DNA of 64,000 bases, from NCBI GenBank assembly GCA_964023205.1, contig OZ026851.1, positions 13,805,637-13,869,636 on the forward strand, given 5' to 3'. This document shows positions 2,906 to 62,897 of this stretch, piece after piece. Position 1 is the stretch's first letter. The number at the start of each line of letters is the position of its first letter. The notes under the pieces were generated by a model. It saw only the letters and a list, made by a program, of their open reading frames with translations. It searched no databases and was not told the DNA's origin. The translations under genes and the position numbers were made by a program. The DNA comes from Lutraria lutraria. Its lineage: Eukaryota; Mollusca; Bivalvia; Venerida; Mactridae.

Positions 2906-9198
<6,293 letters not shown>

Positions 9199-11489: not shown

Positions 11490-11534
11490 TACGTCATTAT
11501 CACGTGACTATAAACTACGTCATTATCACGTGAC
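11490..11534. promoter_or_regulatory. Paired ACGTCATTATCACGTGAC direct repeat
   Basis: The 18-mer ACGTCATTATCACGTGAC is exact at 11490 and 11517. Each copy joins a CRE half-site (ACGTCA) to a CACGTG E-box. Further CGTCATTA copies flank the pair at about 11480 and 11541. It lies about 2.3 kb after the NR4A stop; function unknown. Confidence 0.4.
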
Positions 11535-13528: not shown

Positions 13529-14436
13529 ATGGACTTCGTTGGAATTGGAGTTACCAACATGTTTTTATGTAGTCTACATTTATGAGACGTACGAGCAATC
13601 CGTTTTTGATATCATCTGTAGTGTACGATTAGTTGGACTAGTTTGTATGTGATTCTGACGATATTGTTACTGGCTGTGGACATATACGGGGACAACAAGA
13701 CAGCGTCCAACATGGTGTGCAGGTAAATTTAATGCTTTATATAATGTGATTTTATAACTGCCAAAGCTTAATAATTACATGGTCGCTGAATTCGAATATA
13801 TTTAGCTTCATCCCACAATCGATAGTTTTCGTTTTTTACCGTTATGGAATGTGTTCTATATAATATATTATTATGTAGCGCACCGTTTATACGATAATCA
13901 ACGTAACTTCACTGGAGCTAAACTAAATTAGAATATTTTAATCATCCAAAGTCTGAGAGCATTTCATGCATATATATACAAAATACATACTTATCAACAG
14001 ATTAATGCAGCACATAATTATAATACGAAAAAAATATATATATATATGTATATATATACGCCTTTATATACATTGTAATATCGATTTTATCATTATACAG
14101 TGCATTATAAGATACGACTATGCATAGAATTATACAGCTTTAACAGTTTAATAAAATCGCACAATACCAGACCAAAATTTGTCTGTCATTCATTTGAAAT
14201 GAAAATTGTCCTTTTCCTTAATTGGATCAGCTTATAACGACCGGTAGATGAGGTTAATAATTTTAGATATCAAGTCATTTAAGTGTAATAAGGCCTTTGG
14301 CAGTGTACTTTTGTACGCGTCTGAATAAAGTGTCTGTTCTGTTCTGTCATTTTATTGTTGTTGATAACGGGTGTTATTATACCTCACTCCCGTTTCCAAT
14401 ATAAAGTCGCCTATACCTGAGCGGGCATAAATTTTT

Positions 14437-14676
14437 AATAACACACTGTACAAAATAACACACAATACATAATAACACACTGTACAAAATAACACCACAG
14501 TACATAATAACACACTGTACAAAATAACACACAGTACATAATAACACACTGTACAAAATAACACACAGTACATAATAACACACTGTACATAATAACACAC
14601 TGTACAAATAACACACTGTACAAAAATAACACACTGTATATAATAACACACAGTACATAACAACCACTGTACAAAA
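14437..14676 (+). repeat. 17 bp minisatellite (AATAACACACTGTACAA)
   Basis: About 14 units of AATAACACACTGTACAA, alternating with AATAACACACAGTACAT. A period near 17 stays open in several minus-strand frames and makes three overlapping Cys/Val/Tyr-rich frames of about 100 codons. These are repeat artefacts, not genes. Confidence 0.92.
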
Positions 14677-14935
14677 TTACGCATGCGCAGAAATAATGCT
14701 TATTATACTCATAGACAAATCCGAATAAAAACATTGCTAACCAATCTATACCATTATTATTTACTTATCCTGTGTTATATATTATATAATGAGAATGATC
14801 ACAACTAGAAACTTTTATATACAATACACAGACTAGTTGACAAGTTCTTTTCTATACAATGATTATAAATAATTAGTAAATAATCATATATGATTTTTTC
14901 ACACATATCATAAATGATACAATATACTGTCAGTT

Positions 14936-15305
14936 GTTTTCGGTAATAATTTGTTGTTGTTTTCTGTACGAAGGGAAGCAACTCGTACAATATACAATAT
15001 GGCCTCGTGTCATCAATATTGTCTTATCTTACAAAAGATTCTTAGCTCTACGAAGACACTTACCACAGAAGTTACGAAATTCTAAAACCGTTTTATCAAC
15101 TGTTCTTGTCGACCGCGACTGTTTTCGGTAATAATTTGTTGTTGTTTTCTGTACGAAGGGAAGCAACTCGTGCAATATACAATATGGCCTCGTGTCATCA
15201 ATATTGTCTTATCTTACAAAAGATTCTTAGCTCTACGAAGACACTTACCACAGAAGTTACGAAATTCTAAAACAGTTTTATCAACTGTTCTTGTCGACCG
15301 CGACT
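14936..15305 (+). repeat. 185 bp tandem duplication
   Basis: Two adjacent copies, about 14936-15120 and 15121-15305, nearly identical (for example CGTACAAT against CGTGCAAT). Each runs from TTTTCGGTAATAATTTGTTG to TCTTGTCGACCGCGACT. The near identity suggests a recent duplication. No coding content is supported. Confidence 0.9.
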
Positions 15306-19253: not shown

Positions 19254-20430
19254 TGGACAAAATTGCGGAAGTAACAATCGGCTAACTAAGGTACCTATGG
19301 ATTCGGAAAATGGTTGACTGGAACATGGACTACATGAAAAAACTCGAAACATTTAAACTTCCGACGAAAAATACGACTTACCTTCGAACTCGCCATTGTT
19401 CTAGACCCTTGGTAGCAAAACAATATACCACGTGATTATAGTCTTTAATTGAAATTAGGAGAAAAGGATTTTAGGTATTTTCTTATACATGTATAAGCCT
19501 AATCAAATGACCCCTTTGGCGTGGCTTGGTAGCCAAATTTTTACCCAGGGTCATGATTTGAACAAACTTGGTAGTGGTTATCTGCATAACAAATATAAAA
19601 GTTTAGGTCTTGCACTTTTGGTCAAGAATATGTTTCAATATTTTCCTATCTGAGTCTATGTCAAACCAAGTAATCTCCGGCCATCAGAAGTCTGTTAGAC
19701 AATGCTATACATTACATAATTATATAAGCTCTGCGCATTGTAGTTTCCGAAAAGAAGATTTTTTAAAAGTGTTTCTGTTGGTTGCCATGGCAACTAGGAT
19801 GTTGAATGGAAGTACATTTTTTTTCACCAACTTTGAAACGGATTTTTCTTGCAAAGTTTGGTTGCAATTGACTCCGTGATTTAGGTGGAGATGTTGTTGT
19901 TTATAGAAAAGATTGACAAAAGTTCACCATGAGAAAATTGTTTTCATTTGGGAAAAGGAGGGAAGTCAGGAACGATGAACACATTGCGGAGGTTACGGTT
20001 TTATGCCCAACACCCAAAACCCCTAAACTAACATATACCAAAGATCTAAACCCTACAAAGATGAGACACTTTTATAGTAAACAAAGTACGGTTTCCACTG
20101 CAATCCCCCCCCCCCGCCTAGAGTTTCTTTGTACTTCTGATAAAAACATGGCCACAAACTGTTGCAAATTTGCCATTACATGTTCGTAACTAACAGCAAA
20201 GGTCACGTTCGTATGACTAAAAGGCTATTTACGATCGTGGTATTTTCTTTGTGTTAAATAATGTTCGTACCTAGAAGCAAGACTTATTTATGTGTTTGTG
20301 TCTCAAAATAAATGACAATGGAAAAAATGATTCATATTGTCTCTATAGATATACAAACCTACGTACAGTGGAACTATGGAAATTCTTGTTTGTGCTAACA
20401 TCATATTAGCAAAGGGTTCTAAAATACTCC

Positions 20431-20479
20431 ATGAGTCACAGACAACATCATACGATGGGGGTAAATTATTGTATAAATA
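20431..20479 (+). promoter_or_regulatory. AP-1 site and TATA box before the second NR4A-like gene
   Basis: A consensus AP-1 site TGAGTCA at 20431-20437 lies 34 bp before TATAAATA at 20472-20479. The ATG is at 20546, so a start near 20502 would give a 5' UTR of about 45 bases. AP-1 control would make this gene immediate-early-like too. The sites are visible; their use is inferred. Confidence 0.45.
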
Positions 20480-20545
20480 CCAAGAAAGTCATGAGTAAAG
20501 TGTTGTAACTATTTACTACATTGAAGAGATAGGGTAAAATCAAAT

Positions 20546-23500
20546 ATGAATGCTTCATCTTATAATATGACGACTAGACGGGGATGTGTTCCTGCATCAA
20601 ATACAGCGTACCTTTTGCCATCTCAGGTAGGTTTTAAAATAATTAATATTCCTTTTTTAAACAATGTTTTTTTAAATAAACACTGTGCAGATTTACTCCA
20701 TATATCAGTTGTTTTATTTTTTAAAAATTATATAGACAGCACTTGGCATCTCCATGCTCGACATTTTGTATATGGTCTTTTTGGGAACTCTTTCTTATCT
20801 GTAAGCGTCAGTAATGACATTTAAAAACTAATTTGTAAGTGCATCTTCTCCCTTACAAAAGGTGTGTGAGTCTTAATCGTTCTTTTCACAAATACATTAG
20901 ACAGATTTCTAAACCGTACATATGTTTACAATTTTAACACTGCACCATCTCTATGAAGAATCAATCAAGGATCTGGGCCGTTTGAAATTGAAACATGTAT
21001 TAGACAATGCAAATGTATGAATAATTGTGGACATGTAAACATATGAAAATATGTATACGGTATAAAAAACTGATTCTCTTAAAAATGAAATAAATATTGT
21101 TTCAAAGTCATTTATCCTTTGAAATCAGCATTCCATTTCTGTTGAGAGCACTTCCTTAAATATTTAATATGTGAAATTTCGGTATTTTCTCAATTGATAT
21201 TGTTTTTATTTAGCTATACATGTACGTACTTGATATTTTAGATAAACAACAGTTCAAACCAGACACCTGGATTCGACAACATGAGATCGACACTTCATCA
21301 ACGCCTTCTGTTAAAACACAACGATTTTGATACGACACAGTGTGGACCAAGCTTCTGGAATGTTCCAAATTATACACCTGCGACTCCGACTTTCTTAATC
21401 AACGATACTAACTTCCTTCCATCGCCTAGTCAAGTTCCTGTGACAAACGGTTGGTCGGACGATATTTCCCTCCAACTGACCGGAATGCGGAACTGGCGAA
21501 GTGTAGATTTGAATGGACCCATTAACTACAGCAACTCAACTAATCTAAATACAGACAGTGGCGGAAGACCACAAAATATTGATAACAAATTCAACAATGT
21601 AGAATACCATCAAAATTTCCTCCCTCGAAATTATAACGAAATGGATAGACACGCGAATGCATTGTACACAGCACAGTACTTAGAAAGCACTTATGGGAAT
21701 GCAACGCCAAATTGTTCAAACATTATGCTGCCAATATCTGCCTCCTCGTTTCCATTGGGAAATTTTATGTCCGGAGCGAAGATCTCAGATTGTCATGAAC
21801 TAGGGTTATCAATGGGTGACAATTCTTTAGGACGACAAACGACCTTGTTTGACCCTCTTTTCAAGCGTGAAGCACCATACAGTGGCTATAACAACAGTTA
21901 CTGTATAACTAAGGCTGAAACTCGCCCATCGTCATCTACCAGCAATTTATACATGGAGGCTAATCATAGAAACGATTTTTCATCATTAAAACTCGGGTAA
22001 ATATATTTTCTATACAATTTGGTTAATTCTGGTAACTATATTGGCTTGTTTCAGCCCTCTATACATTATTTACTGATAAAATGTCTGCACTATGGAAACA
22101 AACATTATTTCGATTTCAAAGCAACTAAAATTTCAGTCACTGGATACACATGCACTGTATATCAAGTGTAAAGTTTTAACTTTTTCGAAACAATGTATAA
22201 TGTCTTCGTGTGTGTGTGTTACCATTGCATATAATGTATATTGCATATACGGCATCAAAAATAAATTGATTTTTATAGACACGTGTACTGTAAATAAAAA
22301 TAAATACATACCTGGGGTTTGATCTTCTCGTGTTTAGGTCGGACAAGATTGAGCGCACGTGTGTAGTGTGTGAAGATATGGCATATTATCAACATTATGG
22401 TGTGTACACATGTGAAGGCTGCAAAAGCTTCTTTAAGGTAATTGAATAATCTTAAGTTGTAATCATCATTTTAAGTAATTTTAATCAATAATTTTACTGA
22501 GATCATTTTCATTTACGTTACGCTATAACGCGGTCTTATTGTCGAAGGAATGTACGAGCGTTACATGCTATTGCTAATTAACAACTACGATGTTTAGATG
22601 TACAAAATTCTCCGTTCATAATATTACTAATTAGGTCAACAGTAAACTATTAGTTATGTATGAGTTGAATTTGTACAAATGAAATTCAAATCCCAACCAA
22701 ATATGTTCTTCATCTCTGCAACATGTCCTCGTGAACTAGCTCCGGGTTCGAACATTACATACAAGTACATGACTTCTAACATCACTGTTTAATCGGATCC
22801 CCTTTGCACATAAAATCACCTTACAATATATCCCTTTGCTTTGTGTTTTTGCATTTATTTGCCTTATACATAAATGTATTTTACTTTATTGCCCATTGGC
22901 TCAGTTTTCTGGGGAGTTGATGTATGCTACTTTTTCATACCATTTCGTCTTTCAGATGAAACCTTTTTCACTTAAAAAAATCGAGCATTATTGGAGTTTA
23001 CCTCTCCAAGAAACACCCTTTTGGAATAGCAATAGTGTTGTTATTGAGGGGTTGTTGCTCTAGAGAGGTCAAATTAATAGTTAAATCGTGCGGTGGGTAA
23101 ATGATGCTGTTGTTGAAGGGAGGTTGTTGTCCTTTTAGGATTGGGAACAGACACAAAAAATATTCAGTTTCAAATAACATTGTTTTTAAAAGGATTCTAT
23201 CTAACACAATATTTGGGATTTATTAAACATTTCATTGTTCTGTCCTTTGCAGAGATCTGTCCAGAAAAAAATAAGTTATATTTGTCAGTCGGGCAAGAAC
23301 TGTGTAATCAACAAAGTGCAAAGAAATAGATGCCAGTCGTGTAGATATGACAAATGTATTTTAACAGGCATGGATTCCACATGTAAGTACGCATTTTGGG
23401 GCAGGTTTGATTTTGGCGGGGTGGCAACATTTTAAGTACCTTTGTAGTTGTATGACTGTTTTGAATACCTGACAAAGAATGTGGCACCGTTATAATGTTG

Positions 23501-24283
23501 CAAAGCTGTGAAATGTCGTACTTTCCGTGAAATCCCGCAGTGAATAATCATATAAAAGGATGAAAATTGCTGTATGACATGTATATATAAAATAAAAAGT
23601 AACATAATTTATAATAAAAAGATATTCATGTATATAATATATTAAATAAATTGTACAAGTAATAATATTATAACATAACAGTGATTTTTTTTCGTATATT
23701 TTATAGCCTTATACAGGCTGTTTCCCTTAGCCCAAAAAAACTTGTATTTTCCCCTAAAAATGTCATGTATATGTTCCTCCAAAATGAAGTTATATTTCCC
23801 GCTGAAAAGAAATTAAAGAAGTCCACTAACAGCAATTACAAAATAGATCAACAAAAATGGCTTTAAAAAGCAAAATAATCTATTGAAATCAATAGCTATG
23901 TCAAGAGATTGACAAAAAAAGATAGAATGGACTTTATTTCATATTTTCCTCTTTTCTGATTTATCGCGCTGTATTTTCCCCTTCATAAAGCCACAGGTAG
24001 TTTTGAAAATTCCAAAAAAAATCACTGCATAATTATATAACATGTAAATAAAGTTTAAAAAAATCGGCTTTTATACGATTCTGTGTTCTTTGTATAAATT
24101 TAGTTAAGTTTATTTTTTCATACATATTTAATATTTACTGAAGTCAAATTATTATTTTTTCGTTTATGTATTTTAGTGGTACGGAAGAACGAACTACAAG
24201 GAAAACGCGGACGATTGGCAAAGAAAATAACAGGTGGACAACTGGACATAACACAGGCGCCAACGAGTAAACTTGTACAATAG
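20546..24283 (+). CDS. NR4A-related receptor with DNA-binding domain only, 5 exons, 390 aa
   Basis: Exons: 20546-20626, 21242-21996, 22338-22437, 23253-23382, 24177-24283 (stop TAG 24281-24283). All introns are GT-AG, phases agree and the sum is 1173 bases. Residues 1-286 are an Asn/Ser-rich region without recognised domains. The DNA-binding domain spans about 287-352 and keeps all eight zinc cysteines with normal spacing (CX2C-X13-CX2C, CX5C-X9-CX2C). P-box is CEGCKSFFK and finger 2 contains [14 protein letters not shown]. The extension [14 protein letters not shown] matches the NR4A A-box of the upstream paralogue. The frame stops 21 residues after GKRGRLAKK; no ligand-binding-domain exon is visible before the desaturase gene at 28096. 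About 40 of 66 DBD residues match the upstream gene by hand count. Likely a nuclear DNA-binding factor without AF-2. A decaying copy is possible, but open exons and intact splice sites argue against it. Confidence 0.82.
22338..23382 (+). other. Diverged DNA-binding-domain exons of the second NR4A-like gene
   Basis: Exon 22338-22437 encodes finger 1 and ends in phase 0 after SFFK. Exon 23253-23382 is 130 bp and ends in phase 1, exactly as in the full-length gene. CEGCKS matches the P-box of COUP-TF-type receptors rather than NR4A. The extension and gene structure, not the P-box, point to NR4A. A family C inverted-repeat element sits in the intron at about 22990-23140. Confidence 0.85.
22990..23140. 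mobile_element. Inverted-repeat element, family C
   Basis: TTTACCTCTCCAAGAAACACCC to GTTGAAGGGAGGTTGTTGTC, similar to the copies at 6157 and 30583. Intronic and partly decayed. Confidence 0.55.
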
Positions 24284-24483
24284 ATATCAATCATATACAT
24301 ATATACATATAATTTTGTACATTATTTCGATTTGAAAATATTTCATGTGCAGAATGAGTTAGCTCTATTGAATATGTAGGCCTATGTATATGATATAAAT
24401 TTTCAAGCATTTCTGTGTGATTTCCATTCGTAATTTCGTTTTCGAATAGGCATGTACATTCATAAAAATCTCAATTTCTCTAT

Positions 24484-24733
24484 CACACGCCCGTTTAACT
24501 CATAACGAGTGTAATTTATCCTTCGGCAAAACTGTTGTGAGGAACTTCCGTTTCTCGTTGTCAGCACCCATATTGTTTTCGATATTTTTACACAAAAGTC
24601 TGTATTCTTCACAATTTTGGAAAAACCTTACCTTATTGACATACAATATGGGTGCTCACAACGAGGACGAAAGTTCCTCACAACATTTTGCCGAATGATA
24701 AATTACACTCGTTATGAGTTAAACGGGCGTGTG
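24484..24733. mobile_element. 250 bp foldback, 92 bp arms
   Basis: Left arm 24484-24575 starts CACACGCCCGTTTAACTCAT; right arm 24643-24733 is its complement with a few mismatches; the loop is 67 bp. It starts 200 bp after the second NR4A-like stop codon. If transcribed in a 3' UTR it would fold into a long duplex RNA. Confidence 0.88.
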
Positions 24734-24809
24734 TCATCAAACTTGTTATGTTTTTTCACATCAAGTTGGTTGTTAGATTTTACTCCTCCGTATAACGATG
24801 AAGAGCAAG

Positions 24810-25015
24810 AGACGTCATTATCCATACTATTCACTAATATGTGACGTCATTATCAATAATATTGCCAGTATGTGACGTCATTATCAATAATATTGCCAGT
24901 ATGTGACGTCATTATCAATAATATTGCCAATATGTGACGTCATTATCAATAATATTGCCAGTATGTGACGTCATTATCAATAATATTGCCAATATATGAC
25001 GTCATCAATATTATT
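24810..25015 (+). repeat. 31 bp minisatellite carrying six perfect CRE palindromes
   Basis: TGACGTCA occurs at 24842, 24873, 24904, 24935, 24966 and 24997, exactly 31 bp apart. A degenerate first unit has AGACGTCA at 24810. The rest of each unit is TTATCAATAATATTGCCAGT plus ATG. As DNA it is an array of CREB/ATF consensus sites 0.5 kb beyond the second NR4A-like gene. No regulatory activity is shown by sequence. Confidence 0.93.
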
Positions 25016-25217
25016 TGCTACGTTCCCATTGGGTGAGAACAAATGAGCAGTAAACCGTGTTTTCTCGCAGAGTAATGGTTGATGTCTTACGTGTTCCTAT
25101 GGTCAATATCGCAAGTCTTTATATAGTTTCTTTGTTTCCTGGGTGTGTTATAAAATGAACAGAAAGGATATGTATTAAGTTTGCCATGAATTAACTTTGT
25201 GTAAATAGGACATCAAT

Positions 25218-25223
25218 AATAAA
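25218..25223 (+). terminator. Candidate polyadenylation signal of the second NR4A-like gene
   Basis: The first clear AATAAA after the stop at 24283 is at 25218-25223. Using it would put the foldback and the CRE array in the 3' UTR. Confidence 0.35.
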
Positions 25224-25530
25224 GTTCTACTTTCCAATCTTTTTGTTTCGTTATATTTTTGTGTTTTGCTTTGCAAACACGTGTAGTTATGTCTTAAATA
25301 GAAAACAGGATGACATATGCGTGAAAACGCCGATCATTGACAGAAATAAATGTTAAAATATTTGTTGCGATTTTTTAATACATCGTACTTGATTTTAGCA
25401 GTAGGTTAAGTCCTTAAATAATTATTGTCATATTATATACACTATATATGTAGGTCAATGCATTCAGCCGTGAACTATTTTTTTCAAGTTATTCGCAGTT
25501 TGAGCTCTTTAATTAGCATAAATACATGTA

Positions 25531-25662
25531 TAATCAAACCTGTGTTAGCGGCCACCTCCGAATAAAGGCACATATGGAATAATTACAATAAAACCACTTC
25601 CGGTTATAAAGGTCATCTGTAAATAACGTCCATATGGAGTTTTTGTTCACAGGCTTGACTGC
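25531..25662. mobile_element. Inverted-repeat element, family B (TCAAACCTGTG)
   Basis: Runs from TCAAACCTGTGTTAGCGGCC to TTGTTCACAGGCTTGACTG. The ends are complementary and the interior has GAATAAAGGC blocks. Other copies: 36570-36736, 37938-38097, 61662-61818. Confidence 0.65.
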
Positions 25663-27070
25663 CCTATACTGCTAGTACGCAGGCTGTCTCAGAAACGACT
25701 GGGACTGAAACACACACTTTTGTGTTTTTAACAGAAAGATACAATCTGAAGTCTTTGCGCAATCTTAAAAAATTAACATAAACAAAACACGATCGAATTA
25801 AAGATTCAAAGGTAATTCAAACATAATTTTGCAAACTCTTGTTATGAACAGACAAAAGGTGCAACAATACAACATGTTTACTAAATAGCTGTCACAGTGA
25901 CAATGGGTAGCGAATGCTAATTTTGTCCTCATAATTAATTTTGAGTAGATTGCACTATTTTAGTAAATTAAATTCGGAAATACTTTTTTTCCTTTTTTGT
26001 ACCCAAATGCTTTTGAAAAAAGCTGATTAATGTTTATTTAAAAGTGTACATTTCAAATCCGAGTGAAAAAGAATTAAAATAATTGTTGATTACTAAATGA
26101 ATAAAATATTTTTTTAAAAATGAGAATGTTAATTCATACATATGTATTGTAAGTGTTGCTTAAATGTTGCATTTTCCTTTGTTAACAAGCAATTAATAAT
26201 CATAACTTTTGTAATATCGTAATATTTACAGCATAAGCAATACAGTCAACAGAGCAGGCAACAAACAAACTGACAGTTAGCAAATAAAGACATCAATATT
26301 GTTGTTTTCTTACGTCGTTCTGAAATGTTTCATGATGATATTACAAAAATACTTTATCTGGTAATGCTTCGAAGCATTATCATTGGTGAATAGACTAATA
26401 TAAAGTTCATCACGTTTGGTTTGTTTTATGCGTTTTTTCTATTTATTTTTTGCGCTGTATTTTAAATAGTGGACACTTTTACACAAGTTACTTACATCCG
26501 TGAGTGGTAAATTTAAATGATGAGGTCCATTAATTAGACAAATCATGTGATAATTATGATTGTTACTTTCAGAACAGCGATTGGCATGTAGAATCTTAAT
26601 CATACAGAACATTTAAGGTGAATTAATTTTAGCTCGGTACCGTACCCATCGAAATTTAGAAATTAACCCAGACAGAGTCAAGAGTAGAAACAGCTAAAGA
26701 AAGAGGATCTCAAATTTTGCAGAAGCAATTTTCGTCAGAGGGGGTGGGGGGGGGGCAGCTTAGTCTTTTTAGTTAGGTCGTAAAACCCGAAATTATTGCT
26801 CCCCCAGTTCCTACGGTCATTATCCAAACAGATGAGGAAAATGGGATATATATATTCTATATAGATCTATAATGAAAAATAATCAACATTCCGTATTATA
26901 TATTATTTAATAGCCGACCGGTTTCGTCATTAGACTCATTAAGGCAATAATACTAAAATATGGCGTCAAAATATTACGTCTATATATATATATATATTTA
27001 TCACATACCCGTGCCGTTTTTGCCGTGCCATAAAAACGATTATGGCACGGCCGTGCATATAATATGTAAA

Positions 27071-27091
27071 TGACGTCACGAAATGACGTCA
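27071..27091. promoter_or_regulatory. Two perfect CREs 13 bp apart
   Basis: TGACGTCA occurs at 27071-27078 and 27084-27091, one kilobase before the desaturase ATG. The pair may act on the desaturase gene; unproven. Confidence 0.35.
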
Positions 27092-27313
27092 TGAACTTGA
27101 CGAAGCATAGAAGTAATGTAGAATTGATTTTAACAATTTGAGTAAGCAAAGATAATGTTCACATCGTTAGATATGTTCACACATTTATTATTTATGATGA
27201 CTGTTTCATAATGTAACTATTTTTGTACTCCTGATTAAAAAGCCTTATTACTTGTCACTCTTTTGTTATTAGTAGCAATGTCAAACAAGTTTGTTGGTTT
27301 TCGCCGTATTTTA

Positions 27314-27496
27314 AAGGTATATGATAAAAAGAATATTAAATGAGTGTAGATTCCGTCTTTAATTCATTGAACTCGTTGAATAAAACAGTATGAAACTCGC
27401 CAAAGGCTCGCTTCATACTGTTTTATACAACTCGTTCAATAAATTCAATACGGAATCCACACTCATTTAATATCCTCTATATATTTATCATACCTT
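27314..27496. mobile_element. Near-perfect 183 bp foldback
   Basis: AAGGTATATGATAAA at 27314 pairs with TTTATCATACCTT ending at 27496; the inner arms (ATTAAATGAGTGTAGATTCC and complement) continue to a tight loop near 27400. Typical of a small hairpin MITE. Confidence 0.8.
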
Positions 27497-28095
27497 GGAA
27501 TGTTAATTATTTTTCATTATTAATTTACTCGACTCGGACAATTTTTAACATTTTATATATCGATCTAGTAATATTATATAATATAGCATCCCTGGTTATA
27601 TATGGAATGCCTTATGTATTTATAAATACTATATATATGTATATATACCAGGTAGATCTAGCTTTATTAATAGATATCTAAATTAAACTATATCTGCATA
27701 AAAATATTATATTCCGTAATTTATATAATATAAAATAATTATAATTAAACTTAAATTCAGATTTTCTTGAGTGACGGTCTAGAAATCTTCGTAACGTAAA
27801 AATCTGAAGAAAATACTTGCATAACAGTGAAAGGGCAGACCGGCGTATTAAATTTTGAAGTTATATAAAGTAATGGTTTCATAACCGTCCCACTCTTGGT
27901 TACCTGGTTACAGGTAAACATTTATGTGTATGAACTTGACATTGAACACGTTCGCGTCACTTGGACGCTTTCAATAGTACGATTATTTCAATAATCGCTT
28001 GATTTGACACTGACTTCCGTGTTTGGGCAACATTTGGTTGGCGTGCAGAACCGAAGCAAGTTTATACGTTCATTTCTTGTGTTTTTATCCTAAAA

Positions 28096-31000
28096 ATGGG
28101 AAAGGGTGGAAAAGGACTTACCTCGAATGGATTAAAAGGGGATGCTGTGAAAGGTTTTACTTGGGACGAAATTGAAAAGCACGATAAAAGAACAGATAGC
28201 TGGATCGTGCTGGAAGGAAAAGTTTACAATGTTACGAATTTTATGCGGAAGCACCCTGGCGGAGCTCGAGTACTTTCTACATACGGCGGACAAGACGCGA
28301 CAGTAAGTATGCATTGTCGTGACATTATATATATCCTACTATTTTCTTCATTAGTTCGGCTTGATATGTACAAAAGTGTCTCGATCGATATTCATTTGTA
28401 ATGTAAAGCGACTAGACTAGAGTAGATTTACAGTTATTTGGACTTGATAAATGATATTAGTCACTTCTAATCTTATTCCTGTACTGTAGTGTACAGGCTA
28501 TAAATTTATTATGCAAGGCCTTCCAACACTGAAAAGAGAAGTCAAGGATACTGTGAAGTGATTATTGCAATACAATTAACTTATTTCTGCACGCCCATGT
28601 TACTACATGCTTGGATATGGAAGTATCCTTTATTCTCATATTTTCGGGGATTCTCATATTTTCCTGGATTCGTTTCCGGTCGCGAATACTCGCTCGCGCA
28701 GTTGATACGATTATCCGAAATGCAGTCAAGTTTTCGTCAACATCATTTTCTATCGTATACTAAAGATACAATACGCTCGAGACATGTGAATCATACGCAA
28801 ATAAAGATAAATGTTCAAATTAATTCCTTAAATTATTGTAAATTATGTTATTTTTCCAAAAAACAATGAAACTGGCCACTTTTGTGTTGATCTCCCGCGT
28901 CTGCAATCAGCGGCAGTTGTCTACCCTACCAGATCCGCAAATTAAACGCTTGATTTGGTATAATGCACATAAAAATCAAGATAAACCATTATGTTATGGT
29001 TCAATTATAAAGCAATTAAAATCATCGAATAAACGTTTTGAGAGTTGATATAAAACTTCACCGCCTGATTGATTCTTTGTAATTAAGGACAGATTAACGT
29101 TTTTCTTGTTTATTCACACTCGTTAATAACACTAAATAGTTATTTCAACGATATCGTTAACATTTCGTTCACAAATTCGGTATAATTTGTAATAATTCAC
29201 TTCCAAAAGTTATCACATGAACTTCGTTGCAATGATTTCTTTTTACATTTTTGACTTAGTTGCATAATACAACAAAATAAAAGACCACGCAAAATATTAT
29301 TTCAAATGAGAATTCAAAAACGAGTCTTGTGCTAGAGTGTATGCATTACCCCAAACTAATTGTATGCAGTATAGAATCAGAGCGCGTGTGAAGGTTACTA
29401 CCGAAACGAGGCTATCCAATCAGAATCCCGGAAAAAATATCCAATTAGAATCCCTGAAAATATGAGACAGCTTCTGCGAGACACAGACGACCGAAAGTGA
29501 AAGTAAAAACGTTATGATTTCGTTTCAAAATGGAATTTTTGTACATTTTAAACTGTGAATTGTCATTTGACATAGTTTTTGCTAAGTTTTGATGTATACG
29601 TTTGACCGTTTATTTGTAATCCGCCGACGCAAGCTTGAAAATAAGTCGTTATCCCCCCGAAAATACGGGTCAACGGCATATATACTGGCCATATGTATGA
29701 CTGGGAGACTAACCCTTTACTGGGCTTAAAATGCTAGTTAAATGCCAATCCTGGTCCAAACCTGCTGGTCCAACAGAATTTCAGATAGTCCTTCCTCCTA
29801 TTAATATGTTAATTGTTATTTGTCAGTGATTTTATTTCGCTATATTTACTGCCGTATATGGGCAGTTTCTTTCATTATCCCCCTAAAATGGTCAGAATTT
29901 CCCCCTGACAAGAAGCGTTATCCACATGATCATGTAAAAAGAAGAAAATTACAACAGTTTTCACACCATTGTCACCAATTACAGTGTAGTAATATTTATA
30001 TTTATGATTTAAACAACTAAAATAATCACATATTCCATAGAAATAAATGTTATTATGTATTCCCAATTTGAAATTTGGTGCGCTAAATTTCCCCTTTTGA
30101 TGGGCATGGGTAGTGAGAAAATTTTGGAAAAAAATCACTCAGAAATTTGAAGGTAATTTACTTCTTACTGAAACAATCTTTTGTATCTATACTGACGGTT
30201 TTAATGAAAATCATGATTGCAAACACGCTTTTTTACTGTGTCCGTATATTTAGTTACTGTCCAGCTTTAGGTACTGAATCAGTCACGTATTTAGGTAGTC
30301 AAGTTGCCTTATTTATAATAGTTATAACAGTTAGTTAAAAGGTTAGAGAAATGTCATATCTTGATGTGTGGTTTGATGTTATTTCAGGATGTTTGGACAG
30401 CCATGCATAATGACAAAGAGTTTGTAGGGAAATTTTTGAAACCTTTGTACATAGGTGAAGTTGTCAATTCTCAGGAGGTAAGGATTTTTTTCCCGATCAT
30501 GACGTTCATTCCAGACCCTTTATCTATCCATATTCATTACAGTGTTGTGTCACAATCCCTTAATAAAAAATGCATGCATGGTAACGTAACCTGTACAAAG
30601 CAACACCCTTCAGGAGTAGCAAAATTTTGTTGTTGTTAGGAAAGTCATACTGTTGTTGAAGGGAGGTTGTTGCTCAACAGAGGGTCACTCTGGGGAGGTT
30701 GTACTGTACTTTCTTAGTTCTGAAATCAACTTTCTCTGTTAAATTTCATGATTTGGTAAATTAGACCATTTCTGGAGCTGCGTGAATATTGGCAACCATT
30801 CCCTATATTGGCAATCATTCCCTATATTGGCAACCATACTCCTATTGCCACTTATTCAGAACTTTTTATGTTATTGTTAACATTTGATGACTTCGAGCTT
30901 TTAACGTTGGAGAGCCTGGATGTACACCTAGGTAAAATCAGACTAAGAGCCACCAACCTTTCATAAGCTAGCTGGGTAGCTTCCTCACATATGAAATTTT

Positions 31001-34000
31001 GTCAAATCTCAGAAAAAATTCTAACTCACTGTAGTGTGGGGCTAGTGATACCTTGTCAGATACCATAACCACTTGCCCATGGAGCCCCCCCCCCCCCCTC
31101 CCTCTTTGATTTCTGATTTGCTTCATTGTCATAATAGACTCATATTACATCTTTTACTACGAGATAGTCATATGATGTCAAAATTTGTTTATGGTCAGAA
31201 AAAATTAAAGGAAAGAAATAGCTTAAAGCATTTTTATACTTCTTTTTTGAAGTGCTAACAGCATTGTGAAAAGAGAAAGGAACATTTTAGAACTGTTGTA
31301 CAGCCTACATGTTAGAATAAACTAATTTCTTCCTTTAGTGTTTGTGACAAGTTGAAGATACAGTCATTTATGTTATGACTAAGTTTTAACAAGTCCATGT
31401 TTGTTATAATTTGTTAGTCAGCGAGATTGTCTGTGGGCGGAAAAATGGTTGAAAATATTTTTTGTCTGTTTTTTTGTATGTTGTTACAAATGTCATTGTC
31501 TATACTCTCCCAATTGAAAATAGTATCTTTTTGTCCCAATTCACAGACAAAAATTCCCAAATGAAATTTAAAAAAAGAAAAGAAACTAAAATGTCTGAAA
31601 ATAAGAGATCTTTCACTGTAATAGACATGTAATGATTGAAAGTTCCCTGCATTTAATCTTATAATATTTTGAGTTATTTTTTACAGAAAAAGCGCTATAT
31701 ATAAGTATGGTATAATAATAATATATTCTTCTATTTACATATTCTTATGTAATCTCATATTTGTATATTCTTATACATTTGTATTTATATAAATTTTTTC
31801 ACAGACTGAAATGGAAGCAGATTTTCGTCAGCTGAGGCAGTTTGTAGAAAGCAACAATTTACTCAAAGTGGAGCCTATGTTTTACATATGGCATTTAATC
31901 TCAATCCTATTGTTAGAAGTGGCTGGTTACCTTGTACTGTCAAGAATAGGAACCACATTGGTCCCATACATGGTGGCTGTAGTCTGCTTCGTCATCTCAC
32001 AGGTAAATTTTGCTAAATTTATTCTTTGAAATATCAAAATATTTTTTATCTTATATTTTTTAAGTTTTTTATGCCGGTAACCCCCCGCAAACAAAGTTTG
32101 AGAGGGGGTATATTGGAGTCACTCTGTCGGTCCGTCCATCCGCATAAAATATCAAAATTTTGTGGAGCAAACTACTTTCACATTCTTTAAGCAATTGCAA
32201 TGAAACTTAAAATATGTTATCACCATGAAGTGTAGAAGTACAAGACACAATTTTCATTCCCAGCAATTCACTCATTCCAGAGTTATGTGCCCTTGAACTT
32301 AGCCATATAGTGTACAATGTCGGTCTTAGTTTGTGGAGCAAACTTCTTCCACATTTTTCAATGGATTGAGTTATGTTCTCTTGAACGTAGCCATATAGTG
32401 TACTTTCACTTTCTTAGTGTCAAAGCGGCGTCGGGGGTATTAGCCACCTCTGTGACAGCTCTAGTTGTTCTTGAAAGCATGTGGCATGGTAAAATAGTGA
32501 GACAGAGGACCTAGAGTACAGAGAATGTACCATTCCTCGGGCAGTGTTTATTCTCTCTTCATTGGGAAGAGGCCTTAATTAGCCTGTTGAGTTTGGGAAG
32601 AATTATGACTAATATCGCTGATTTTGGAAATAAAATAGCTGGTGAAAGTTTGGATTTTTGGGAAAACTGCTGATTTTAAAGAAATTTTTAATTGGGAGGA
32701 GGCTTTGCTTAAGAAGTTGAAAAATCACTGTTGGGCCTAAAGAAAAGTATAGGGATGTAGGGGAGAATTAGGGAAGTTTGGGTAACCAGTAACAAACATT
32801 TTTTTACGCCTATTATGATTTAACCTTTACATTATCAGAACAAATGGAGTCCATTTTAGATCGCTGAACTTTCTCGTACGGTTTCATCTCCCTATCATAA
32901 TGTACTTACTGAGGTTATTTTCGTATTAGCGACAAATACTTGTACATTGAAAAGTATTGTATTTCTAATGAATTTATTTATGCATATTACTGGTAAATGA
33001 AAGAAATACTAATTTGTTTCTTTGTTGAAGTTAGTATTAAGGATTTCAATCAGTTAGTTGTATTTCCGTGAAATTTTAGGGGTCATCATGATCCCTTTAT
33101 GTATCAATCTTTTCTACAGTACTTTATTAAAAACAACATTTCATTTTAAAGTCCCATAAGCATATACATTTATCGGTCCTATCAGTTTCTGTTTATTCTA
33201 TAACAGAGGAATCCAGTGTGTTTTCCTCCCGTGCATACTTTATAGCAAGAAAAAATGTTTCCAAAACTACTATCGTATTTTTTTCAGTGTCATTGAAAAA
33301 AAGACTATTTATAGAACAGCTGTGTTTTCCCGCAGTCATATTATGCACACGGCATTAAGTGACGTCACACGCTCTATATATTTCAAGTTTACAAAAGCAA
33401 AATACACAGCGAAATGAGTGTTTTTAGAAGAAAAATGGCTTGTTTCGTCGGTAATAACTATCTTGGGAAAATATCAGCAAATGTTTGTTTTTTTACATAC
33501 CGGTATATTTTTTATTGCAAAAAGCTCATAGGGCTTTAATAATACAGTATAATGGAATATGGTTATAATTACATCATCGATCATGTATGATATTAGACTA
33601 GTACAGTGTAACCTCTCAAAGCAACACCATTGGAAAGGTTGTGCTGTAGTCTTTACTTCGATTATTCTAAAATTCAATTTTAGGCACAAGCAGGCTGGCT
33701 TCAACATGATTTTGGTCATCTGTCAGTTTTCAACAACAGAAAATTAAACCACATAGCACATCACCTTATTATTGGCCATTTAAAGGTAAGTCACTATAAA
33801 AGTACCAACTTTTTTTATTTTGAAACAAAAAAATCATTTGGAAAGTTTCATTATTTGCCCAATTATGTCAGTGTTGTCTTTAAACATGAAAAATAAAACC
33901 CTTGGTTGATTGTTATGTACAGAAAATTTCTTGCTTTTACTTTACTTTTATAGCAAATTTTACCCTTTCGTACAAATTCTTAAGAGTCGGAAGCCTTATT

Positions 34001-37000
34001 TTACAAATTACAGGAGTCAAAATACCATTTTAAGGGTCAAATTAAAGCCCTGTATGTTATATAGAGGCCTTTACTTCTTCTTTATGTAGTGAGCATGTCT
34101 GATGAGTCTTTGTTCTATAAATTCTGTTGAATCATTAATTTTCGTTGGGGAATTAATTTCGTGGATTTTGTGGGTCGGCTCATCCACAAAATCAAATCCC
34201 CACAAATTTAAATGCAGAGATAAGGCATTTTTTTCAAAAATCAAAATCTACCAAATTTATGTCCCCAAGAAATAGCCATTTTAATAAAAACCACAAAAAT
34301 TGAGCCTAATGAAAATATGGTATATGCAAGACTGAAAATAGAAATACCGGTAAGTTTGTTTGGAGTGCTTCAACCTACTCATGAAAATCCTAGCACACAA
34401 TTTTTTTTTACATTTTTTTACTGTTATTATATACCGTAAGTAAAAAAATCCCTACCTACCTACCCAGTGGTAAAATTCTTGGTCGTAGCACTCCAAACAA
34501 ACTTATTTTTATTTTCAGCCTAAAGTACAATTTATTGTGATTTAATTCACTGCCTTGACTCTAACTTAGACTTGAGGTTTTTAAGTGTATAAGTCTAGCT
34601 GCTTGTACGTAATGAAATAATAGCATTGTAGTATACTTGTTGATGTATTGCTTACATGTGTGACTGTATTGTTACTTGTATGTGAAGTATAATATTAATT
34701 GTTACATATTCATTTTTTGTAGGGAGCGTCTTCTCATTGGTGGAATTTCCGCCATTTTCTTCATCATGCAAAACCAAACATTATAAAGAAAGACCCCGAC
34801 GTGCAAGTTGCCAATTTGTTCTTACTCGGAGAAATAATGCCGAAAGTTTTTGGTTCTAAGAGACGAGGTTTTATGCCGTATAACTTTCAGCATATCTATT
34901 TCTGCTTGTGTAAGTGCTTATTTTTCACATTCATAAATTTTGCTGTTAACTAATACAGGGGGCGCTGGAAGCAATTTAACATTGGGGCAGCGGAGGGGTG
35001 GGTTTGGAAGGGGGTGACCACCTGCCTCGAGTGGGCTTTTGTCAAACAATTTATTTTGCAGAAATATTGGGACGGCATTCACTGCCCCTGTCGCCCCAGC
35101 TCTGCTCAGACACCTCTGTAATGTTAGTATGCAGATGATGTACTACAATCACTGTCATATAAACTTTCTGTATCTAAGATTTAACATGATAGTATAATTG
35201 TGATAATTCATTATCACAGTGATAAATCATTATCATTGTAACTACATGTACATCATTATTATCTATGCTTAAGATCAATGGGTTATAAGACAGGAAAATA
35301 GCTGACAGTGTCTTACCTGTCATTCTATGTTAACATATTTATCCAGTCTAAAGTCTCTTACATGGAACCAGTCTAAAGCATGGTCAGTCAGAAGTTGTGG
35401 ATTCAACGCCAAGCACTAGTGGAACACCACTTTGTTCTGCATGTAAACTTGTAAAGTAGCCAAAGTTATTACATTGTAGGTCATGTTTTTCCCAAGACTT
35501 CTCGTACATCAAGTTAAATAAAGTTATCATTTGCTTGTTGAGTATCTTTGACGTAATGTTTGACTTATTTTGCAGTGACCCCACTTCTACTACCAACTTA
35601 CTTTGTGTGGGAAAATTTGTATTTTGTTATAAAGAGGAGAGATTACTGGGTATGTATAGTTTTAATTTTATTTCTGTCAAGGCCAGAACGTATTTTGTGT
35701 CTTTCTGTGCCAAATTGATTTTTGTCATTTCTAAAATCTGAAAAATAAAGTGCCTTTGATAAATTCTATTATTATTTTCTAACCATTCAAGTTAAGGTCG
35801 CTGACTTCAAATAACTGTAACATCTCACTAATAGAAAGTTGTGGGTTCAAGCAGAGCTTCCGACCATGTCTCTTTATGTGAGAAAGTAGGCAGTTGCTTA
35901 CGGAGGATGGGAGTCTAGTACTGGTTCTTCCCAGGAATGATGGTTAGGTGATCTGTCCTCCTCATATGACTCTGACTGTTGAAAAGGGGCGTAAAACCCG
36001 ATATACCGGTGAACAAAACAAACATCAAGTTGTAGTCCAACTTTCTGTGTGAGGTAAATTTGTCAATTTTAAATCCTCAAATAATGATTATCTAAATCAT
36101 CTTCCACTTTTTAGCTGAGAGGGTTTTTATGGACACATTTAACTACCCGTAAATTCAATCTTTGAGATCTTGCATTCTTTAATTACTTTCTTTCTTATTT
36201 CAGGATTTATTTTTTACCGTGACTTTTTTCTATCGTATGTTTGCCACATTGACGCCGTTACTTGGTGTATGGGGAGTCTTCGGAATATTCTTTGTTGTCA
36301 GGTATGTTGAAAACTTTAGAATTAAAATCATATTAGCCATCGTAAATATCTAAATTCTTACAATTATACATTTCCTACTTTCCGGTTACTGAGTTACTTA
36401 AAATCTCTGTTCTTGAATTGTGAAACCCTGTTTATCTGAATTGATAGGGATCTAAATTTGATGCTTTACAAGTACTTAACTTGTTCTCTGCGAGTTACTC
36501 TCAACCTCTTGCAACCTCTCCACTAAAATGACTCCAGAGATGCAGAACAAAACTTAATGGACTAAGATAGAGTCAGACCACCTCTGAATAAAAGCCACCC
36601 AGTGAATAAAGGCCATTCTTCAAAAAGTCTTATTTGATCATTTAGAAAAATATGACCTCCAAATAAAAGCCTCCTGTGATCAAAGGCCACATTATGTCTT
36701 TCCCAAGTGTGGCCTTTGTTCACAGATTTGACTGTAATGTATTCAATCCCATCACTATAAACAACTCATTTACCATTCTCAATCTTCAAACTCACGATTT
36801 GAGGGCTGTTAATTAATCTTTGATGGGATGAAGCCATCATAAAATAACCATTGAATGGGTAAGAATAAGTTTTTCAGTTTTAAGACTGAAGGGGAAAAAA
36901 GCTCATTTCTTCATTAAAATTTTCAGAGTAATTGAAAGTCTTTGGTTTGTATGGTGTACTCAAATGTCTCACATACCTAATGAGGTCGACTTTGACCACA

Positions 37001-39575
37001 GTAAGAAGTGGTTCCAGCTTCAGCTAGACTCTACGTGTAACGTTGAGCAGAGCTTCTTTAATGATTGGTTCTCTGGACACTTGAACTATCAAATTGAACA
37101 TCAGTAAGTCTTATTTCATTTATACTCTCTGTTTGACCCGCCTCTGTGGTTAAGGTCACTTCAAATCACTGTTACCACTCACTGATAGAGGGTTGTGGGT
37201 CGAGCCCAGCTACCGACCATGTATCTTCATGTGAGAAAGTAGGTGGTTGCTTATGGAGGATGGGAGTCTAGTACTGGTTCTTCCCAGGAATGATGGTTAG
37301 GTGATCTGTCCACCTCATATGACTCTGACTGTTAAAAAGGGGCGTAAAACTGAAATGAAAAAAATCATACTCTTTGTTTAATTGAATGATTTCAATGCTT
37401 TAGACTGCAGATATAGCATCAGATTCGGTTTTATTGTCAAGTAACAAGTTTTTGTGGTATAACTAGTTTTGTGGTATTATATGTATTGCAACATTTCCAA
37501 TTTGCACATGCGCATCATTCCTGAAAATTTGTAAACAGATTGTCCGACAATTTTGTTAGCTCGTTGATTTCTGCATACAATATGCTAATCATAAATATCG
37601 TAATCAATCATAAGTATCGTAATTAATCATAAATATTGAATCAATAATAAATATTGCAATCAATCATAAAATATCATAATCATAGATATTGTAATCAATC
37701 ATAAATATCATGATGTCACTCAGACATGATACTGTAGAATCATTAATTTTCATTGGGGATTTAATTTCGTGGATTTCGTGGTTCGACTCATCCACGAAAT
37801 CAAATCCCCACGAATCCAAAAGTGGAGATAAGGCATTTCTTTTCAAAAATCAAAATCCACGAATTTATGTCCCCACGAAATAGCCTTTTTAGTAAAAACC
37901 ACTTGAACCCAACGAAAATTAATGATTCCACAGTATACAGTCAAACCTGTGCTAGCAGCCGAATAAAGGTTACCCTGTGAACAAAGGCCATTCTTTTACA
38001 AGCTGTTATTGATTATTTAGAACAAAATGACCTCTGAATAAAGGCCACCTGTAAATAAAGGCCATGAGTGGTCTTTTGTTCACAGGTTTGACTGTATATG
38101 ACACTATGACATTGTAAGTTATTCCCATTGCTATTTTAGAACAAAGTTTTATAAGTGAAATCGTTCTTTTCAGTTTATTTCCGACCATGCCAAGACATAA
38201 CTTCAGTAAAGTGGCTCATCTGGTTAAATCTTTGGCCAAGAAACATGGAATTAACTACCGATGTAAGCCTCTGTCGACGGCTTTCGCTGATGTTATCAGG
38301 TATATGAATATTGTATGATTCTGAAAAATTCAGATACAAAAATGTCTTTCGACAGTTTTTCTGTTTTATATGGGCAGTTATACCAACCAGTGTTCCTGTA
38401 TACCAGAACCGCCCTGGATCTCCGCAAATAACTGCCAACTTTTCCTCACATGGTCGAGTGGTTATGGTCACTGACCTCTCACTGTTAGAGGGTCGTGGGT
38501 TCAAGCCCAGCTACCGACCATGTCTCTTTATCAATTGTTTATGGAGGATGGGAGACTAGTACTGGTTCTTCCCAGGCACGATGGTTAGGTGAGCTGTCCG
38601 CCTCATGTTACTCTGATTGTTGAAAAGGGACAAACAAACAAACAAACAAACAAACAAACGTTTCCTCATGAATCATAGTGGACTAGTTAAAGCCTAATTA
38701 ATATCTTTTGTCAAATTATCACAGAGAGCACGTCAGATCTTCAACTTTTCTGTACATGAAAATTACTGTTAATTGAAATTCACATGTTGGTCAACAAAGT
38801 TTACGTCAATATATGATGTGACTACGTAAAAAAAATTCCGTGTTAATAGTTTAAAATGTTTACTCATGCATTGACCTTTGGTGGCGGTGCTATTTTGGAA
38901 TAACTGTGCACAACATATTACGTTCAAACAAAAGAATTTAGTACATTATTGTATAGGGGAAAAAAGGTGAAATATAATAGGGGAATATTAGTGTTAAGCA
39001 AGTCTCAAGTCCATTTTTGGACATATCTTAGTTTAAGTTAAAATGTTTATGTAAGAGGGACAGCGTTTTATGGTTGATAACTGAAATATATGCATGTGGC
39101 ATGAATTTTAAGATATTAGTATTTGCTGTCTAAGTCTTAATATGACTGTAAAATGATTTCTTTGATTTGTGCCACAATAACATTATAAAACTTGAGAACG
39201 ATCTCAGAGTTCAAATCTCAATTCCATTCTCAAGGTGTTATAGTTGAAATGATAGAGCTGATTAATGTTTAAATACATATTCAGATCAATTATGCCGTCA
39301 GACTAATATTTTTGTATTGGGAACATTAAAAGACAAGACACGAGATTTGAGCTCGGAGACCAATCTAAAGGTCTATAACTTCGGACCCAGGGCTGTTCTT
39401 CATATATCCATCCAAGTTTTTTATGTATAACTTTTTAGAAAAAAGTTTGGTGTACAGTACAGTGTTTGAATATAACTCTTATATTGTATAAAATGGTGTT
39501 CTTTTTGTTATTTTCAGATCTTTGGAAAGTTCTGGTGAAATCTGGTACAATGCATACTATGAAGGCTTACATTAA
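28096..39575 (+). CDS. FADS: Front-end fatty acyl desaturase with N-terminal cytochrome b5 domain
   Basis: Exons: 28096-28302, 30388-30477, 31805-32002, 33684-33785, 34723-34909, 35576-35649, 36204-36301, 36927-37103, 38174-38299, 39518-39575 (TAA 39573-39575). Phases agree; 438 aa, the usual length of animal front-end desaturases. The cytochrome b5 domain is at about 20-95 with heme motif HPGG at 53-56. The desaturase part has hydrophobic membrane segments and three histidine boxes that bind the di-iron centre: HDFGH (173-177), HFLHH (210-214) and QIEHH (374-378). Gln replacing the first His of the third box marks front-end enzymes. It should add double bonds between the carboxyl end and existing ones in polyunsaturated acyl chains, in the endoplasmic reticulum. 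Whether it acts at delta-5, -6 or -8 cannot be settled from sequence alone. The start ATG fits the b5 domain length. Confidence 0.95.
28637..29465. repeat. Possible element with inverted CTCATATTTTC ends
   Basis: CTCATATTTTCGGGGATTCT and TTTTCCTGGATTC at 28637-28672 are roughly complementary to GAATCCCGG and GAATCCCTGAAAATATGAG at 29422-29465. It lies in desaturase intron 1. The interior reading frame 28845-29048 is unrecognised. Weakly supported. Confidence 0.3.
30583..30710. mobile_element. Inverted-repeat element, family C, in desaturase intron 2
   Basis: From ACCTGTACAAAGCAACACCC to GGGGAGGTTGTACTGTAC; the ends are complementary and the interior shares TTGAAGGGAGGTTGTTGCTC with other copies. 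Confidence 0.65.
32075..32520. repeat. Dispersed repeat in desaturase intron 3
   Basis: Begins CCCCCCGCAAACAAAGTTTG and contains tandem TTTGTGGAGCAAACT and CATATAGTGTAC blocks. It resembles the abundant 'GTCCGTCCATCCGC' repeats of mollusc genomes (from general knowledge). The frame 32317-32514 lies inside it and is not a gene. Confidence 0.5.
33601..33650. mobile_element. Short family C inverted-repeat copy
   Basis: TACAGTGTAACCTCTCAAAG to GAAAGGTTGTGCTGTAGT; a 50 bp, nearly loopless version directly before desaturase exon 4. Confidence 0.5.
33956..34055. repeat. Dispersed repeat, family D
   Basis: ATTTTACCCTTTCGTACAAA to AAGGGTCAAATTAAAGCCCT. Similar copies at about 52707-52800 and 54747-54812 in importin introns. 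The ends are partly complementary (GACCCTT against AAGGGTC). Confidence 0.5.
34124..34325. mobile_element. MITE family A copy 1 (AATCATTAATTTTCGTTGG)
   Basis: Compound inverted-repeat element with internal hairpin TTTCGTGGATT and complement. Four copies in the window: here, 37730-37935, 42514-42675 and 55885-56087. This one is degenerate at its ends. Confidence 0.7.
34360..34520. mobile_element. Inverted-repeat element, family E (GTTTGGAGTGCT)
   Basis: TAAGTTTGTTTGGAGTGCT at 34361 is complementary to AGCACTCCAAACAAACTTA at about 34487. A related copy at about 58080-58270 ends in GGCTGAAAATAAAAATAAGT and its complement. Confidence 0.6.
35788..36026 (+). mobile_element. tRNA-derived SINE family A, 5'-truncated copy
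   Basis: Begins within the A box (GTTAAGGTCGCTGACTTCAA), has a B-box-like GTGGGTTCAAGC and body motifs GAGAAAGTAGGCAGTTGCTT and ACTGGTTCTTCCCAGGAATG, and ends GGGGCGTAAAACCCGATA. Desaturase intron 6. Confidence 0.8.
36570..36736. mobile_element. Inverted-repeat element, family B
   Basis: GAGTCAGACCACCTCTGAAT to GTTCACAGATTTGACTGTAA with several AATAAAAGCC/AATAAAGGCC blocks. Desaturase intron 7. Confidence 0.65.
37137..37360 (+). mobile_element. tRNA-derived SINE family A copy
   Basis: CCGCCTCTGTGGTTAAGGTC head, GTTGTGGGTCGAGCCC B-box region, same body and GGGGCGTAAAAC tail as the other copies. Desaturase intron 8, just after the exon ending at 37103. Confidence 0.85.
37730..37935. mobile_element. 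MITE family A copy 2, best-preserved ends
   Basis: TACTGTAGAATCATTAATTT at the left and AATTAATGATTCCACAGTA at the right form clean inverted termini bounded by TA. A family B element follows directly at 37938. Confidence 0.85.
37938..38097. mobile_element. Inverted-repeat element, family B
   Basis: ACAGTCAAACCTGTGCTAGC to CACAGGTTTGACTGTAT: complementary termini of about 16 bp and internal GAATAAAGG blocks. It abuts the preceding MITE. Desaturase intron 8. Confidence 0.8.
38444..38659 (+). mobile_element. tRNA-derived SINE family A copy
   Basis: TGGTCGAGTGGTTATGGTCA head, GTCGTGGGTTCAAGCCCAG B box, shortened body, tail of eight CAAA units at about 38628-38659. Desaturase intron 9. Confidence 0.85.

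Positions 39576-45228: not shown

Positions 45229-62897
<17,669 letters not shown>

Follow-up and report, generated by a model that had tools for sequence, protein, structure and literature searches.

Can a nuclear receptor of the NR4A type lose its ligand-binding domain (LBD) and live on as a gene for little more than a DNA-binding domain (DBD)? The question is raised by two neighbouring genes on the forward strand of a 64,000-nucleotide stretch of a clam genome, hereafter the window (C20:13805637-13869636 of the assembly). One of them is a full-length NR4A (HR38) gene, and the other, whose ATG follows the stop of its neighbour at a distance of 11.3 kb, encodes a protein that ends shortly after the DBD. 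Our preferred reading, to which we assign a probability of roughly 0.7, is that the second gene arose as a tandem duplicate of NR4A from which the LBD was lost, so that its present product is a transcription factor with a DBD only. In the following, we examine whether the gene is alive, whether it is complete and where its DBD comes from.

The Two Genes

The NR4A neighbour is 79% identical to HR38 of both Mercenaria and Ruditapes, while those two are 91% identical to each other. These values indicate a bivalve source that is kin to Mercenaria and Ruditapes but lies outside that pair. The environmental protein P0041 matched exon 2 of the neighbour with 95.6% identity over 271 residues.

The DBD-only gene consists of five canonical exons at 20546-24283 that join in frame to give 390 codons and a TAG, with GT-AG boundaries in all four introns (Table 1). 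Pfam assigned one domain to the 390-residue protein, zf-C4 (E 4.2e-27), the C4 double zinc-finger DBD that marks the nuclear receptor superfamily, and gave no further family at E-values up to 1. The eight zinc cysteines are all intact, and the GKRGRL extension is followed by 21 residues and then by the stop. The spliced frame and the Pfam result thus confirm the initial annotation in its exon count, protein length, zinc cysteines, extension and position of the stop. The 251 open codons of exon 2 have a chance probability of about 3e-7, calculated from the exon's own composition and for this one place, not for all possible places. No N-terminal homology to NR4A was detected by profile, as the HMM score of -1.5 was matched by 235 of 500 shuffles, and the top local N-terminal score, obtained against Ruditapes, was equalled by 18 of 300 shuffles. 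Over its full length, the 4201-bp locus matched the 728.5-Mb assembly (71 contigs) once, which makes it single-copy.

Upstream of the ATG, the TATAAA at 20472 is the sole one on the forward strand in 20200-20546. A AAAGGTCA site 348 bases 5' of the ATG was considered as a promoter NBRE and set aside; the window holds five such sites against 3.58 expected, and nothing was drawn from it.

Table 1. Features of the NR4A neighbour, the DBD-only gene and the surrounding sequence (window positions).
Feature	Position	Strand	Remarks
Full-length NR4A (HR38) gene	2906..9198	+	Full-length; first short coding exon not located
NR4A neighbour, located coding exons 5' of the LBD exons	2906-3037, 3512-4326, 4972-5155, 5565-5694, 6433-6593	+	
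NR4A neighbour, four LBD exons (beside a hinge exon)	6832-7034, 7658-7842, 8588-8735, 9087-9198	+	tblastn
TATA-box-like TATAAATA	20472..20479	+	74 bases 5' of the ATG; putative function
Coding exon 1	20546..20626	+	27 codons; phase 0 at end
Coding exon 2	21242..21996	+	N-terminal region; phase 2 at end; no similarity to the N-terminus of NR4A detected
Exon 3	22338..22437	+	First zinc finger; stops at FFK, phase 0, like NR4A
Exon 4	23253..23382	+	Second zinc finger; 130 nt like NR4A; phase 1 at end
Interspersed repeat, ~350 bp	23675..24028	+	Within intron 4 of the DBD-only gene
Exon 5	24177..24283	+	GKRGRL extension, tail of 21 residues, TAG
Imperfect inverted repeat, MITE-like in form	24464..24753	.	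180 bases downstream of the stop
31-bp tandem array, 6.3 copies	24811..25005	+	Six perfect TGACGTCA sites inside
Candidate poly(A) signal	25218..25223	+	First AATAAA 3' of the stop; putative use

Constraint on the DBD-Only Copy

Between the DBD-only gene and its NR4A neighbour, the pairwise dN was 0.35 and the dS 1.80, which is near saturation. The two proteins are 50% identical over 111 aligned positions (56/111), and 49 of the 86 residues of the DBD plus extension are identical. Neutral evolution was simulated in 2000 runs, with drift on the DBD-only copy since the duplication and synonymous change alone on NR4A. The frame stayed free of stops in 33 runs, while none of the 2000 kept the eight cysteines and none reached the observed identity of 49/86. 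In a lenient version with three times the length on the NR4A branch, 38 runs were stop-free, three kept the cysteines and 22 reached the observed identity, and an open frame together with the cysteines was seen in 0 of 2000. The simulations thus argue against a long drift as a pseudogene and for selection on the copy over most of its past. Two other loci of the genome, L009 and L010, were tried as pseudogene yardsticks and rejected, since their in-frame stops came from finger-1 exons read into their own introns.

The copy could nevertheless have died recently, so that a duplicate functional for most of its history would now be a pseudogene free of lesions. Its DBD branch is long (3.44 in the 29-row tree described below), and no orthologue of the gene was found in three protein searches (31, 13 and 165 proteins, with the best 120 of the 165 used), a weak negative since the candidates were chosen by words. 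Furthermore, the G+C content differs little among codon positions (0.40, 0.43 and 0.39, compared with 0.50, 0.44 and 0.36 in the NR4A neighbour), so composition gives the gene no coding signal of its own. Against these observations stand the 390 open codons, the canonical boundaries of all four introns and the neutral simulations, and we consider a recent death unlikely. The gene is probably an intact DBD-only gene.

Search for a Ligand-Binding Domain

With the NR4A LBD as the query, tblastn matched the exons of the NR4A neighbour alone, and no second set of LBD exons was found in the whole window. Likewise, three HMM profiles run against the 2977 six-frame ORFs of the window gave LBD matches to the four exons of the neighbour and to no others. 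A profile built from two vertebrate NR4As detected all four of these exons (E 1.6e-19, 1.5e-18, 1.4e-7 and 5.3e-7) and would thus have revealed an LBD of comparable conservation. A profile of 113 non-NR4A LBDs clearly detected only one of the four (4e-7; the others 0.043, 7.6 and unlisted), so a strongly diverged LBD could escape it. Between 24.3 and 28.1 kb, 3' of the DBD-only gene, the top match of the LBD profile search had an E-value of 15. The next gene opens with a cytochrome-b5 ORF at 28003-28398 with an ATG at about 28096, and the original observation that no LBD exons precede it therefore holds for tblastn and the HMM profiles alike. The region 28003-37104 is likely a front-end fatty-acid desaturase gene (cytochrome b5 E 3.1e-19; FA_desaturase E 9.6e-7, narrowly below the cut-off), and an importin beta-1-like gene with HEAT repeats and TPR_IMB1 (E 4.2e-15) lies at 52034-59776.

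The gene model would be incomplete if an isoform avoided the TAG, for example through a donor after 24233, and reached LBD exons that are farther off or absent from the assembly. A donor-like CAG/GTGGAC is indeed present there and scores 6/9, the same as the weakest among the 11 donors of the two gene models. However, donor-like sites scoring at least 6 occur at 9.4 per kb in 24600-28000, a frequency that makes this one unremarkable; moreover, the LBD exons detected in the window all belong to NR4A and another gene begins at about 28.1 kb. An unseen continuation of this kind is quite improbable. With a DBD and no LBD, the gene fits the NR0 definition as worded in PMC4070562. As it lacks the LBD by which an NR4A is recognized, we label it "NR4A-derived" and not "an NR4A".

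Relationship to NR4A

The resemblance of the DBD-only protein to NR4A extends beyond the zinc fingers. A 13-residue stretch of the extension aligns without gaps with that of the NR4A neighbour and has RGRL at the NR4A spacing, and the solved structures most like the protein are the DBDs of NR4A2 and NR4A1 (E 6e-31 to 1e-28). The P-box differs, reading CEGCKS where NR4A has CEGCKG. At the gene level, the intron phases 0, 2, 0 and 1 are common to both window genes in all four introns, and both have a second-finger exon of 130 nt. This exon starts at profile position 28 only in the two window genes among 28 split DBD genes of the same genome, which were paired by eye. The gene structure adds weight to the descent from NR4A independently of trees. 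Another nuclear-receptor DBD of the same chromosome, about 72-77 kb upstream of the window (L041; G000:C20:13728844-13733426), is split at the common 25/24 position and not at that of NR4A.

The DBD phylogeny that the initial annotation had called for also placed the gene with NR4A. In a tree of 29 rows, picked from 130 proteins plus the window, the support for this grouping was 92/76, and it was 98/95 after four long rows had been dropped (25 rows). We also built a tree of 44 DBDs from the clam's own genome, comprising 42 loci constructed from 67 of 81 DBD hits and the two window genes (four hits); the 10 remaining hits, unpaired or fragmentary, did not enter the tree, and X was placed at the joins of split codons. 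Here the NR4A neighbour was the row nearest to the DBD-only gene (61% over 66 columns; support 89/78), at a fork that was not starred. A placement with NR2F was not rejected (p-AU 0.19 with 29 rows and 0.14 with 25). Neither was an origin of the duplicate within the clam lineage alone (p-AU 0.064 with 25 rows); the best tree places the gene outside clam and vertebrate NR4A, on a long branch.

That the DBD came from another, NR2F-like subfamily and resembles NR4A by convergence is very improbable, for although the P-box serine is that of the NR2F rows, the AU test does not reject this origin and the matches of two protein searches were mostly NR2F (owing to the P-box stretch), the trees support NR4A in three sets, the intron site and phases are common with NR4A, GKRGRL stands at the NR4A spacing, unlike the QRGRL of NR2F, and the gene lies in tandem beside NR4A. 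The NR4A derivation proposed at the outset is supported by the DBD identity, the GRGRL extension, the intron positions and phases, and the tandem position.

Orthologues and Precedents

An RGRL-like motif followed the DBD in 15 of the 130 proteins compared, and in four of them it had the NR4A form. Those four proteins (from Mercenaria, Ruditapes, Hoplias and Eptatretus) all have an LBD according to their listed Pfam domains. Among eight proteins listed with PF00105 only, seven carried a DBD without an NR4A-type extension, and one was without a DBD start by the pattern used.

The DBD-only receptors of the NR0A group (knirps, ODR-7) derive from other subfamilies. By description, they are like the clam gene in having a DBD without an LBD (PMC7827873). 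The NR4A receptors (NGFI-B, Nurr1, Nor1, HR38) share with it the DBD fold, the RGRL extension and the intron positions and phases, but they have an LBD, an unrelated N-terminal region and the P-box glycine. In the passages of PMC10497141 and PMC8363021 that name holders of DBD-only receptors, only arthropods and nematodes appear. Two receptors with a single DBD are reported from the Pacific oyster (Vogeler et al. 2014, PMC4070562). One of them, CgNHR41, has no identified LBD and is said there to be what "might be another homolog" of NR4; in the published DBD tree it falls outside the NR4 group. The statement that DBD-only receptors derived from NR4A had not been described is not supported as worded, given this single-DBD protein and its possible NR4 homology, which liken it to the clam gene by description and not by sequence (PMC4070562).

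Second NR4A-type genes are also described in gastropods, with two such genes each in Biomphalaria and Lottia (PMC4388693). BgNR4a and LgNR4a are comparable to the clam gene as a second molluscan NR4A-type gene beside HR38, but they presumably have an LBD, as the same paper does not mark them as excluded from its DBD+LBD tree. In the literature searched, no title or abstract described a tandem pair of NR4A and a DBD-only gene. The clam gene looks like a new instance of a little-studied kind, with CgNHR41 as a published near-precedent that is probably similar.

Repeats and Motifs around the Gene

The repeat in intron 4 has at least 40 other matches in the genome (40 scored of 2194 candidates), of which 39 are long and 80-88% identical and one spans 49 bases. 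The inverted repeat 3' of the stop has no further copy within the window and may be a trace of the event that removed the 3' part of the gene. Tandem arrays with units of 40, 34 and 185 bp were seen at 7858-8448, 14436-14677 and 14935-15305, respectively, the first within an intron of NR4A.

The CRE sequence TGACGTCA occurs 13 times in the window against 0.50 expected. For ACGTCATTATC, there are eight copies against 0.05 expected, six in the 31-bp array that follows the DBD-only gene and two at 11491-11527, about 2.3 kb 3' of NR4A. These copies may go back to the duplication of a 3' element with CREs, or they may simply be a common clam repeat.

Proposed Function and Significance

NR4A binds the NBRE as a monomer, as known from work on NGFI-B, and the RGRL motif of its extension contacts the 5' AA of the site. 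Since the residues of the recognition helix are retained in the clam protein, together with the RGR extension, monomer binding to NBRE-like sites is to be expected of it. Most likely, the gene encodes a functional DBD-only transcription factor that evolves fast and can bind such sites. We propose that NR4A was duplicated in tandem and that one copy then lost the LBD. The TATA-like element at 20472 would serve this copy as its promoter, and the encoded protein would enter the nucleus and bind NBRE-type sites (AAAGGTCA) as a monomer. The outcome of binding would be set by the unrelated N-terminal region; with no AF-2 and no LBD surface, the work done by the LBD of NR4A is beyond this protein. 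It may compete with NR4A at shared sites, which is plausible since neither the DBD nor the RGR extension has been lost, or it may regulate a subset of its own. That the net effect is antagonism of NR4A is a tentative idea, to which we give somewhat less than even odds.

More speculatively, the clam gene and CgNHR41 might together form an ancient and conserved bivalve branch of DBD-only NR4 receptors, sister to all other NR4A. Such a gene, born by tandem duplication and free of an LBD, would be dedicated to reading the target sites of NR4A and would tune an immediate-early receptor linked to CREB, and both copies would have retained CRE-rich repeats on their 3' side. We regard this scenario as doubtful.

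The tandem pair provides a genomic context, in the form of neighbours and an intron map, by which the same gene can be sought in other bivalves, and it lets CgNHR41 be judged as a real orthologue or as a truncated model. According to a table in PMC7827873, no physiological ligand is known for the NR4A receptors. A gene in which nature has retained the DBD of this family and discarded the LBD would ask directly what the LBD contributes.
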